Below are positions 21,682-25,769 of a DNA stretch of 52,542 nucleotides, one piece after another. Position 1 is the stretch's first letter, and every line of letters begins with the position of its first letter. A program made the position numbers and the translations under genes. Source of the DNA: Candidatus Nomurabacteria bacterium CG1_02_43_90 (GTDB lineage Bacteria; Patescibacteriota; Minisyncoccia; Phycocordibacterales; UBA1550); contig MNVN01000015.1 of the NCBI GenBank assembly GCA_001871765.1, forward strand, positions 1 through 52,542. Direction: 5' to 3'. The notes beneath the pieces were generated by a model. It did no database searches and had not been told where the DNA came from. It saw nothing but the letters and a program-made list of their open reading frames with translations.

Positions 21682-22185
21682 CTATTTCTTCTTCAGCGCG
21701 TCAATTTCTTTCAGGAGTTCCGTGAGAGTCTTTTCCAGCTTCGTGAGTGCTTGCGCGTTTTTCTTTTTTTCTAGTTCTTCTTCGCGATCCTCTTCTTTTT
21801 CTTCTTCCTGTATTTCTTCAATATCTTCAGAAATCTCTTCGACGTCTTCTTGAATCTCCTCCACATCTTCAGAAATCTCCTCTACATCTTCTTGAATTTC
21901 GTCAATATCCTTTTCCACTTCACGCAGTTGTGCCGAGTTTCTGTTGACACTCATTTGAATAAAAATAGCGAGATAGATTGCCTCAAGCGATACGACAGTA
22001 GTGAGCACGAGAAGCACTGTCGCGAGGGGCACCCCCATGATTGCTAATACAAAAGTTCCGATAAAAAGAAGGGTATGTACAAAGAGTGACTGAATTGATC
22101 CAATCCAATTCGTAAAAGCAATTGCTATCTTCTCGAGCCTTGTTTCTTGGGGCCCCGTTATTTTTTTGTCAGACATCTTTTTCAT
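21682..22185 (-). CDS. DUF1003-like membrane protein with acidic coiled coil
   Basis: 167 residues. The N-terminal half has FTNWIGSIQSLFVHTLLF and two membrane helices ending in IFIQMSVNR, as in DUF1003 proteins. The second half (about 85-165) is a very acidic heptad coil built from a 14-residue unit (EDVEEISEDVEEIQ) repeated about 2.5 times, also visible as a DNA repeat. It would project a charged rod from the membrane. The next gene upstream is divergent, and the large palindrome at 22246-22305 lies between them. Function unknown. Confidence 0.8.
   Translation of the reverse strand: MKKMSDKKITGPQETRLEKIAIAFTNWIGSIQSLFVHTLLFIGTFVLAIMGVPLATVLLVLTTVVSLEAIYLAIFIQMSVNRNSAQLREVEKDIDEIQEDVEEISEDVEEIQEDVEEISEDIEEIQEEEKEEDREEELEKKKNAQALTKLEKTLTELLKEIDALKKK
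21812..21925 (-). repeat. In-gene 42-nt repeat coding for coiled-coil units
   Basis: About 2.5 copies of a 42-nt unit encode EDVEEISEDVEEIQ-type heptads. The copies differ at several third positions, so this is old duplication, not a recent expansion. Confidence 0.6.
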
Positions 22186-22245: not shown

Positions 22246-22305
22246 TTTGTTCAACTATAGACGTATACGATACTATAGTATATTATACGTCTATAGTTGA
22301 ACAAA
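22246..22305. repeat. Near-perfect 60-bp palindrome in a divergent promoter region
   Basis: The arms 22246-22267 and 22284-22305 are 22-nt perfect complements. The centre 22270-22281 (ATACTATAGTAT) is itself a perfect 12-bp palindrome; only two base positions on each side (22268-22269 and 22282-22283) break the symmetry. The right arm contains TTGAAC, the -35 of the gene at 22332. It could be a dimeric operator, a cruciform, or the remnant of a small inverted-repeat element. Confidence 0.9.
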
Positions 22306-22324
22306 TTCCTGATGAAGGTATAAT
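22297..22324 (+). promoter_or_regulatory. Promoter of the gene at 22332, overlapping the palindrome
   Basis: TTGAAC (22297-22302), 16-nt spacer, TATAAT (22319-22324). The ATG comes 8 nt after the -10, so the mRNA would be leaderless. A protein bound to the palindrome would cover the -35. Confidence 0.65.
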
Positions 22325-22331
22325 TACTTAC

Positions 22332-22928
22332 ATGGAAAAAAACACAACCCCACCAACGCCACCGGAAGCTATTACCAACCGTGTCCCCCAAAAGCGTCAC
22401 CCACTTTTTAAATGGATACTGGTATTTGGTATTGCTATTGTTGCTAATCTTTTTTTGAATTATGCACTCGATGCTTTTTATCCAAATCCACTATTTGAAA
22501 CATTTTGCCCTCAGAAAGAAGTCGTAACACCTATTACTGAAGAAAAGGCGTGTCGCAGTGCCGGTGGTCAATGGACAAATGATCCCTACAAATATGTTGG
22601 GGTGAGCGCGCCGATACCCGCAGGTGCACCGCTGGGTTACTGTAAGGAGAATTATACATGTGGGAAAAACTACGAGGAGGCAATGAAGATGTACAATCGA
22701 AATATTTTTATCGTATTGGTTATTGCAGGCACCGCACTATTGATTGGAAGTATTTTTTCCTCTGCCATAGAAGCAGTTGCTCTTGGCTTCTCGTTTGCGG
22801 GCATCTTGTCCCTTGTTATCGGTACTATGCGCTACTGGGGAAGTATGGATGACCGTTTGCGCGTGGTGGTACTTGGCTTCGCTCTTACTGCACTCGTGTG
22901 GATAGGGATTAAAAAGTTTAAGGACTAA
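22332..22928 (+). CDS. Membrane protein with Cys-containing outer loop
   Basis: 198 residues. One helix at about 25-45, then a loop of about 75 residues with four Cys (including CRSAGGQWTND and GYCKENYTCG), then three helices at about 125-195. The cysteines probably form disulfides outside the membrane. Only 3 bp separate it from leuS, so leuS may depend on this promoter. Not recognised as a known family. Confidence 0.7.
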   Translation: MEKNTTPPTPPEAITNRVPQKRHPLFKWILVFGIAIVANLFLNYALDAFYPNPLFETFCPQKEVVTPITEEKACRSAGGQWTNDPYKYVGVSAPIPAGAPLGYCKENYTCGKNYEEAMKMYNRNIFIVLVIAGTALLIGSIFSSAIEAVALGFSFAGILSLVIGTMRYWGSMDDRLRVVVLGFALTALVWIGIKKFKD

Positions 22929-22931
22929 GGT

Positions 22932-25769
22932 ATGGTCGAAAAGTATGACCACAAGGCTCTAGAAAAAAAATGGCAAGATGCATGGGAAGCGTCGGGGGTT
23001 TACCGCGCCGAGAGTGGCGCCTCAAAGCCCAAAAAATACATACTCGACATGTTCCCGTATCCTTCAGGAGAGGGTCTTCATGTGGGGCATCCAAAGGGGT
23101 ACATCGCAACAGATGTATATTCTCGCGCAAAGCGTATGCAGGGGTTCAACGTGCTCCATCCTATGGGGTGGGATGCTTTTGGCCTACCTGCAGAAAATTA
23201 TGCGATAAAAATGAAGACGAACCCGGTAGAGATGACCGAGAAAAATGTCGCGCGGTACAAGAAGCAACTTTCGAGTATTGGTTGTGATTATGATTGGACA
23301 CGCGAAGTGAACACAACCGACCCAGCGTTCTACAAATGGACGCAATGGATATTTTTAAAAATGTTTGAGCGGGGGCTTGCGTACGAGTCGTATGAACCCA
23401 TCAACTGGTGCCCCACGTGCCAGACAGGTCTTGCCAACGAAGACCTTGAAGATGGAAAGTGTGAACGCTGCGATACTCCTGTCGAGAAAAAGCCAATGCG
23501 TCAGTGGGTGCTCCGCATTACCGACTATGCTAATCGTATGCTTGCTGACCTTAATACCCTTGATTGGCCAACGTCTATCAAAGAGTCACAGAAAAATTGG
23601 ATAGGGAGGAGTGTCGGGGCGGAGATTGACTTCATTGTTGATGGTAGTGATAAACTCATCACCGTATTCACGACACGCCCCGACACTCTTTTTGGGGCGA
23701 CGTACTGTGTCCTTGCTCCCGAGCATAAACTTGTTGATGAACTCAAAGGGTCAATACTAAATTTTAGTGAAGTCGAAAAGTATCGTACCGAAACAAAAGC
23801 CCGCACGGAGATAGAGCGCACGGCAGAGGGTCGAGAGAAGACTGGTATAAGGCTTGAAGGTGTTTTTGCTGTCAATCCCGCCAACAACGAGAAACTCCCC
23901 ATCTTTATCGCGGATTATGTATTGGGGAATTACGGCACCGGCGCCGTGATGGCAGTACCTGCCCATGATGAGCGCGATTTTTATTTTGCGAAGAAGCTTG
24001 GGTTATCTATTAAACAAGTTGTTGCTTCGGTGTTTGTTGATAGTGTGAATCCGCCAAAAGATGGGGCTGAAGATACGATTCGCTATGGCGTTATTCTTAT
24101 GATTAAACATTGGGAGGAAGATAAATATCTCATAAATTATTCTCCAAAATTCAACTGGAAATGTTTATTTACTGGCGGAATCGAAGAGAATGAAGATCCC
24201 TTAGAAGCCGCTGTTAGAGAAATGAGAGAGGAAACTGGTTATCAAAATATAAAAGAAATACATTATATTCCTCTTGAGCATGTTGATAAATTCCATGCAC
24301 CCCACAAAGGGGTCAATAGAGTTGTCTATCAAAAAAATATTTTTATACAACTTGCAGACGGCGAAACAAAAGAGAGAAGCAAAGAAGAAAAAGACTTGCA
24401 TCACATTAGTTGGCTTACAAAAGAAGAAATGCTAAAGACGATATCTCTTCCTAATCACCTTTATATTTTCGAAACAGAATTTTTACAAGGACGGGCGTTA
24501 GCAGGAGAAGGGGTTTTGTTCAATTCAGGATCTTTTGATGGTCTTTCAAATGAAGATGCAAAACGTAGAATCACCGATTTTGTGCAAGGTCGGTGGGTGA
24601 CTAAGTATCGCCTCAAAGACTGGGTATTTTCTCGCCAGCGTTACTGGGGTGAACCAATACCTATTATTCATTGCGAGAAGTGTGGCGTTGTTCCCGTTCC
24701 TGAGGCAGATTTACCCGTCATGCTTCCTCATGTAGAATCCTATGCGCCAACTGGTACCGGCGAGTCACCGCTTGCAGATATTGCCGAGTGGGTGAATACT
24801 GTTTGTCCACAATGCGGGGGTGTAGGCAAACGCGAGACAAACACGATGCCTCAGTGGGCAGGTTCGTCGTGGTATTATGTGCGCTATATTGACCCGAAGA
24901 ATAATGAAGTACTCGTTGATAAAGAAAAGGAAAAGTATTGGTCACCAGTAGATATGTACGTAGGGGGCGCAGAACACGCCACACGCCACCTTATTTACGC
25001 GCGCTTCTACCATAAGTTTCTGCACGATATTGGTGTAGTGAATTACGAGGAGCCGTTTATGCGTTTGCAAAACGTGGGGCTCATCATGGCAGAGGATGGA
25101 CGCAAGATGAGTAAGCGGTGGGGGAATGTAGTGAACCCCGACGATGTTATCGCGGAATATGGAGCCGACACGCTTCGCTTATACGAAATGTTTATGGGTC
25201 CGTTTAGTCAATCCGTCGCATGGAGTACAGAGAGTATCATTGGCCCCCGACGCTTTCTCGAGCGTGTGTGGCGACTTCAAGAAAAAATAGTCACCGAAGG
25301 AAATCAGTCCCTTGAGATGATCCTACATAAGACCATTCAAAAAGTGAGTGAAGATATTGAGTCATTTAGTTTTAATACAGCGATCTCCACCTTGATGATC
25401 CTTCTTAATGAGATGGAAAAAGTTTCAATTTCGCGGAAGCAGTATGAAGTGCTCTTGCTTCTTCTCGCCCCCTTTGCTCCTCATCTTACGGAAGAGTTAT
25501 GGCAATTAGTAGCGAATACATCGTCAATCCATGTTTCTTCGTGGCCTGTTTTTGACGCAACAAAAGTAATTGCAACAGAGATGACCATTGCAATTCAAGT
25601 AAACGGAAAGGTCCGCGATGAGGTCGTGTTTGGCAAAGATACTACCGATGATGAGATAAAAGAGGCAGTACAGGCTCGAGAAACTATTAAAAAATGGACA
25701 GAAGGGAAGACCGTTAAAAAACTAATCCTAGTTCCCGGGAGACTTGTCAATATCGTGGTCACGGATTAG
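22932..25769 (+). CDS. leuS: Leucyl-tRNA synthetase with an inserted NUDIX domain
   Basis: 945 residues. LeuRS features: HVGH (about 50-53) as the HIGH motif, zinc-type Cys clusters, the editing-site TTRPDTLFG and AVPAHDERD, SRQRYWGEPIPI, and KMSKR (725-729) in place of KMSKS. At about 366-520, between the editing Asp region and the return strand VLFNSGSFDGL, a full NUDIX hydrolase domain is inserted. Its box (415-437) is canonical: GGIEEN-E, REMREETGY. In ordinary LeuRS this spot is a loop of about 20 residues. The inserted DNA is AT-richer and uses AGA for Arg while the flanks use CGN. The insert is in frame, and the synthetase appears intact around it. Confidence 0.97.
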   Translation: MVEKYDHKALEKKWQDAWEASGVYRAESGASKPKKYILDMFPYPSGEGLHVGHPKGYIATDVYSRAKRMQGFNVLHPMGWDAFGLPAENYAIKMKTNPVEMTEKNVARYKKQLSSIGCDYDWTREVNTTDPAFYKWTQWIFLKMFERGLAYESYEPINWCPTCQTGLANEDLEDGKCERCDTPVEKKPMRQWVLRITDYANRMLADLNTLDWPTSIKESQKNWIGRSVGAEIDFIVDGSDKLITVFTTRPDTLFGATYCVLAPEHKLVDELKGSILNFSEVEKYRTETKARTEIERTAEGREKTGIRLEGVFAVNPANNEKLPIFIADYVLGNYGTGAVMAVPAHDERDFYFAKKLGLSIKQVVASVFVDSVNPPKDGAEDTIRYGVILMIKHWEEDKYLINYSPKFNWKCLFTGGIEENEDPLEAAVREMREETGYQNIKEIHYIPLEHVDKFHAPHKGVNRVVYQKNIFIQLADGETKERSKEEKDLHHISWLTKEEMLKTISLPNHLYIFETEFLQGRALAGEGVLFNSGSFDGLSNEDAKRRITDFVQGRWVTKYRLKDWVFSRQRYWGEPIPIIHCEKCGVVPVPEADLPVMLPHVESYAPTGTGESPLADIAEWVNTVCPQCGGVGKRETNTMPQWAGSSWYYVRYIDPKNNEVLVDKEKEKYWSPVDMYVGGAEHATRHLIYARFYHKFLHDIGVVNYEEPFMRLQNVGLIMAEDGRKMSKRWGNVVNPDDVIAEYGADTLRLYEMFMGPFSQSVAWSTESIIGPRRFLERVWRLQEKIVTEGNQSLEMILHKTIQKVSEDIESFSFNTAISTLMILLNEMEKVSISRKQYEVLLLLLAPFAPHLTEELWQLVANTSSIHVSSWPVFDATKVIATEMTIAIQVNGKVRDEVVFGKDTTDDEIKEAVQARETIKKWTEGKTVKKLILVPGRLVNIVVTD

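Follow-up and report, generated by a model that had tools for sequence, protein, structure and literature searches.

The closest described counterparts of the locus analysed here are the REP-RAYT systems, in which palindromes are dispersed through intergenic DNA, a gene lies between two cognate palindromes, the repeats co-evolve with the protein, and changes in the hairpin arms are compensated (PMC2817692). Repetitive hairpin-forming elements are described in organelle genomes (PMC2800124), as are palindromic repeats in Volvox (PMC2670323). Here we describe a palindrome that is, on balance, likely to belong, as a non-autonomous solo copy, to a new family of palindromic repeats that is dispersed together with, and probably by, a Cas2-like protein.

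The analysed stretch of DNA, hereafter the window, comprises 52,542 nucleotides of a 682-kb genome that is 98.8% complete. Judging by the size of this genome and the genomes that accompany it, the organism appears to be of the Patescibacteria type. Its palindrome (Table 1) consists of perfect 22-nt arms and a perfect 12-bp centre with two mismatched positions per side (28 of 30 pairs matched), exactly as an earlier note on this DNA had described it. Such centres are expected by chance in 52.5 kb at 3e-10 under the window composition and at 4e-8 under the local composition. As single-stranded DNA, the 60 bp were predicted to fold into one hairpin (−21.6 kcal/mol, z −9.6). Hairpin or cruciform formation is possible, and a terminator scan found no intrinsic terminator at the palindrome. 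The Rfam matches were all to eukaryotic microRNA models far below the cut-off and were rejected as a generic-hairpin artefact. A 28-bp perfect stem with a TTCG-type centre (TGCGGGCAGAACATAAAAAGAGGACAGC...) at 1632–1690 of the window lies outside this palindrome family and is perhaps a terminator or another repeat.

Table 1. Position and basis of the features at the palindrome and its neighbouring genes
Feature	Position in window	Strand	Basis or remark
60-bp near-perfect palindrome, solo copy of a dispersed family	22246–22305	no strand	sequence, blastn, covariance model
Family core, 46 bp	22253–22298	no strand	covariance model R1 match, 69.8 bits, E 2e-16
Left outer arm TTTGTTC, copy-specific	22246–22252	no strand	resembles TTTTGTTAAC at the equivalent place in palindrome-less relatives
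Right outer arm GAACAAA	22299–22305	no strand	complement of the left outer arm
TTGAAC, −35-like hexamer from the right arm	22297–22302	+	relatives have TTGCGG/TTGCGC
TATAAT, −10-like hexamer	22319–22324	+	consensus scan
Divergent neighbour ORF, 167 aa, membrane/coiled coil	21682–22185	−	ORF
Neighbour ORF, 198-aa membrane protein, 3 bp upstream of leuS; start (ATG at 22332) 7 nt after the −10	22332–22928	+	
leuS	22932–25769	+	

The palindrome is located in a 146-bp divergent gap between the 167-aa and 198-aa ORFs, the latter of which is probably in one operon with leuS. The TTGAAC-N16-TATAAT pattern and the directly following start codon reported before were both recovered, and the short distance from TATAAT to the ATG makes a leaderless transcript likely. 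Since the promoter scan gave 2 promoter-like sites versus 1.0 in shuffles, the promoter is a putative one, assigned by its agreement with the consensus. The same divergent gene pair is separated by 84 bp in G007 and by 87 bp in G004, both without the palindrome, and the difference of about 60 bp from the window corresponds to the palindrome length. Because these relatives keep a −35-like TTGCGG or TTGCGC at the place of TTGAAC, the insertion seems to have taken the place of the −35 hexamer. If confirmed, this would indicate that streamlined genomes can build the promoters of essential genes, leuS among them, on inserted repeats. The role as operator of the leuS promoter that the earlier note had considered is not supported: conservation in close relatives had been named as the test, and the orthologous gaps contain no palindrome. 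The leuS gene itself has an unusual architecture, with a NUDIX domain (PF00293, E 3e-14, residues 388–502) after the editing-domain match, and the 167-aa ORF contains a 21-nt periodic repeat (21803–21907) encoding an acidic coiled-coil-like stretch.

Searching the genome for further copies of the arms had also been suggested. Searches with the exact arms gave no further copies in the window, its own genome, or the viral contigs, and no second exact 13-mer of the palindrome occurs anywhere in its own genome, but diverged copies were found there by blastn. Finding them required blastn together with a covariance model. This was one model on one subfamily, built from nine copies, so that the copy counts are lower bounds, and its E-values are rough. 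With it, about 8 family sites were located in the window genome. Of 16 same-genus genomes, 13 contained copies, with at most about 22 sites in any one of them and E-values reaching down to 1e-17. Among 397 genomes drawn from across the order, matches to the family beyond the genus were limited to 7 genomes. A pattern search of genome contigs returned nine short dyads in other phyla, which were unrelated and put down to chance. The consensus core of the family is CTATANACGTATAATATACTATAGTATATTATACGTNTATAG, and each genome tends towards its own version of it, as in concerted evolution. Most of the genomes are draft assemblies, and some palindromes have N at the centre or are located at contig ends because hairpins break assembly.

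The arms of the family vary freely in sequence while remaining paired. Among 59 aligned copies, Watson-Crick pairing was 96–100% at 10–21 bp from the centre, with changing letters. Position 16 from the centre was TA in 26 copies, GC in 20, CG in 11, and AT in 1, and position 17 was CG in 20, GC in 19, AT in 18, and TA in 1; pairing at these two positions was 32–37% when shuffled, the lower value being that of position 17. By about 28 bp from the centre, pairing is no longer above background. The arms of orthologous copies in G003, G009, and G014 differ, yet they are again complementary, so pairing is maintained or re-established during sequence turnover. Some copies (L068, L072, L076, L082, L124, L184, L199) are asymmetric at the centre, one side of which is ACTATCGGCCAAATACG-like; in G014, such copies lie in inverted orientation at the two ends of the gene unit and may mark element ends. 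In L080 of G002 (about 1968–2096), family ends surround a longer folded interior (~120 bp) that replaces the usual centre.

The 46-bp core matches dozens of copies elsewhere by blastn and covariance model, which refutes an origin of the core by template switching at this locus. A local origin of the palindrome, in which template switching copied the promoter arm, thus has next to no probability, and only the outer arms can be local. The left flank TTTTGTT, or the left outer arm as TTTTGTT(C)AAC, is similar to the TTTTGTTAAC of palindrome-less relatives, so that the arm produced by copying may be the right outer one, a suggestive observation from one locus. Near L159 and L155, terminator stems that were already there could account for the palindromic outer arms.

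At several sites in relatives, family palindromes lie on both sides of an ORF of 181–183 aa (~182 aa). The encoded protein is winged-helix-like at its N-terminus and contains a PaaX_M (Cas2-like) domain, PF20803 (E 1e-17 to 1e-20; 64–73 bits versus a cut-off of 24). The PADLOC Cas2 models also match it, the NCBIfam cas2 model is reached by three of five such proteins, and the residues of the Cas2-type FD and QxSVF motifs are invariant or nearly so. Comparison with the PDB by sequence gave weak Cas2 and MarR matches only, and no homologue was found in the viral contigs or in PHROGs. There are 36 copies of the gene in ten of the 16 same-genus genomes; all ten of these genomes have palindromes, and three of the six gene-less genomes have none.

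A de novo palindrome search around 30 gene copies revealed near-perfect palindromes of 34–64 bp close against almost every copy, in general on both sides. These palindromes are wholly different between paralogues and alike on the two sides of one gene (e.g., CTATCATCTATCTGTAGTCATGACTACAGATAGATGATAG, ATTACAATAACAGACGATCGTCTGTTATTGTAAT, CCCAGCAATAGCACGCTATAGCGTGCTATTGCTGGG). By a strict score, at least one hugging palindrome was present at 27 of 29 gene copies and a matched pair on both sides at 14, while 306 control genes from G014 stretches had both-side palindromes in 4 cases and matched ones in none. Moreover, the more alike the proteins are, the more alike are their palindromes (Mantel r 0.54, 0 of 5000 permutations). 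A few of the associations may belong to a Y1 system, since the flanking palindrome of L204, counted in the de novo search, resembles the Y1-associated palindrome of L274. In the phylum, PF20803 occurs in 118 of 380 genomes with up to 11 copies. Outside the genus, about ten of the 29 top loci are hugged by near-perfect palindromes, in most cases on both sides, and matched flanking palindromes are also found at homologues in other families of the phylum. PF20803 members of 236–269 aa outside the genus are mostly unflanked, and because several long PF20803 proteins elsewhere in the phylum have no flanking palindromes, the domain alone does not define the system. The open literature searched contained no report of Cas2/PaaX-like genes with flanking palindromes.

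PaaX-type proteins are regulators. The palindromes might accordingly be operators of a PaaX/Cas2-like winged-helix repressor, serving autoregulation at its own gene and control of targets such as leuS at the solo copies. The upstream palindromes found 4–40 bp before many Cas2-like gene starts agree with this, as does the overlap of the window copy with the −35-like hexamer. We nevertheless regard such a regulon as unlikely, since a matched palindrome is also present downstream of the gene, the palindrome is not conserved at orthologous promoters, and the window genome has copies without the gene. Furthermore, the letters vary freely, with pairing kept, where a dimer would read. The gaps that hold 86 family copies, typed with ORFs called by length only, were co-directional in 60 cases, divergent in 14, and convergent in 11, with 1 copy at a contig end, so the sites are not confined to promoter-bearing gaps.

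The Cas2-like gene was absent from the window genome in a search to E ≤ 10. Between a gene of ~390 aa and argS, a name based on a reading of its sequence, G002 and G012 carry a palindrome-gene-palindrome unit, and the window genome has a solo palindrome (L071, 2050–2095); in G012, the palindrome downstream of the gene near argS is degenerate. The simplest reading is that the window genome formerly possessed the unit, of which the gene was lost while solo copies persisted. In an ortholog comparison covering about 390 kb of G014, family copies at L108 and L116 were present in G009 and absent in G014, and a whole unit in G009 (L210) had about 100 bp in its place in G014. We consider mobility of the palindromes probable, and the pattern of presence and absence is also compatible with ancient copies that were lost in some lineages. 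No clear target-site duplication was detected at the copies: abutting repeats of 4–8 bp numbered 0 versus at most 0.7 expected, and those of 2 and 3 bp numbered 10 and 4 versus 5.6 and 1.8 expected. A clean empty-site pair was not found in the comparison of relatives because intergenic flanks diverge too fast. Of the three options in the earlier note, an inverted-repeat mobile remnant thus came closest, with the dispersed copies, their presence/absence, and the gene-bearing unit in relatives in its favour, but the target duplications expected with it did not appear.

Arm compensation at orthologous sites, the strong hairpin, and the T-runs that border some family copies would also suit non-mobile structural palindromes (cruciform, nucleoid, or terminator-like) that are kept perfect by selection or template-switch correction and share only ancestry with the gene. 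This explanation is quite unlikely given the family-specific pairing with gene paralogues, the matched pairs on both sides, the patchy presence, and the window copy without a terminator.

Genes of the Y1 (RAYT-like) type, ~225 aa in length, with their own matched palindromes were observed at L276 (G000:C18:1-2600), L285, L286, L289, L290, L292, and L293. An example of the Y1-gene palindrome in the window genome is AGGAAGGCCGGGCCTTCC; these are REP-RAYT-like units in a very small genome. The Y1 genes of the genus, with palindromes different from those of the family, are a useful internal positive control. It is conceivable that a Y1 (HUH) transposase mobilises the family palindromes with the Cas2-like gene as a passenger, as Y1 genes occur in 14 of the 16 same-genus genomes, that of the window among them, and several lie between palindromes of their own. 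This is very unlikely, because all 24 Y1 loci lack a family copy nearby, family palindromes occur in G003 in the absence of Y1, Y1 occurs in G011 and G013 in the absence of family palindromes, and the palindromes co-vary with the Cas2-like protein. In addition, the GT(A/G)G or CGTC tag at the hairpin foot was seen in 1 of 77 family copies, with about 4 expected by chance per tag.

We therefore favour dispersal with the Cas2-like protein. The full unit would consist of a palindrome, the gene for the ~182-aa winged-helix and PaaX_M/Cas2-like protein, and a second palindrome, and the solo palindrome would have arrived in the leuS-side promoter region within the lineage of the window. Its own palindrome is probably what the protein recognises, in the form of DNA (a dyad or an extruded hairpin) and with the conserved centre ACTATAGT as a likely contact, and the Cas2-like domain probably nicks or processes the palindrome. 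The association of gene and palindrome points to this enzymatic role; to our knowledge, there is no transposition chemistry for Cas2/PaaX-like proteins alone. Such hairpin processing by the protein would mobilise the palindromes, dispersing short hairpin copies into intergenic DNA, as REP-RAYT does with an unrelated enzyme, and their outer arms would be copied from the flank. Perfect complementarity of the arms could be preserved in one of two ways: the hairpin may be the substrate, or foldback copying may rewrite one arm from the other.

It is in our estimate an even question whether this is a new class of prokaryotic mobile repeat, in which Cas2-like/winged-helix proteins of several small-genome bacterial lineages recognise perfect palindromes of their own and spread them without Cas1 or HUH transposases. 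If so, the Cas2 fold would have a direct role in DNA mobility outside CRISPR. Confirmation would establish a second, independent invention of the REP-RAYT lifestyle with a Cas2-like protein replacing the transposase, would bear on the origin of Cas2 and on what Cas2-fold proteins do without Cas1, and would explain the abundance of Cas2/PaaX-like genes in these small genomes. Dozens of gene-palindrome pairs with differing cognate sequences would then provide a ready test set.

Compared with known systems, the protein resembles the Cas2/PaaX_M superfamily in exceeding the PF20803 cut-off and in its conserved FD and QxSVF residues, and differs in its fused N-terminal winged-helix-like region, its length of ~182 aa, and its palindromic flanks. 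It is not the phenylacetate regulator, its TIGR02277 match being far below the cut-off. Like MITEs, the family combines short non-autonomous inverted-repeat copies with a longer gene-bearing unit. In contrast to MITEs, it has no detected target-site duplication, the repeat is a whole palindrome, complete at each end of the gene unit, and the full unit encodes a Cas2-like protein rather than a known transposase of the MITE/DDE kind. The palindromes look selfish like the organelle hairpin elements, for which the consulted portions of the papers mention no gene-bearing unit such as the one described here (PMC2800124; PMC2670323). REP-RAYT (TnpA-REP) shares the dispersed extragenic palindromes, the two cognate palindromes flanking a gene, albeit a different gene, the repeat-protein co-evolution, and the compensated arms. 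Here, however, the protein is winged-helix and Cas2-like rather than Y1 (PF01797)/HUH, the palindromes are long (about 48–60 bp), near-perfect, and symmetric at the centre in most copies, and the copies number tens rather than hundreds. The layout is thus shared, but with neither a Y1 transposase nor a GTAG/CGTC tag, the family works like REP-RAYT without being a member of it.
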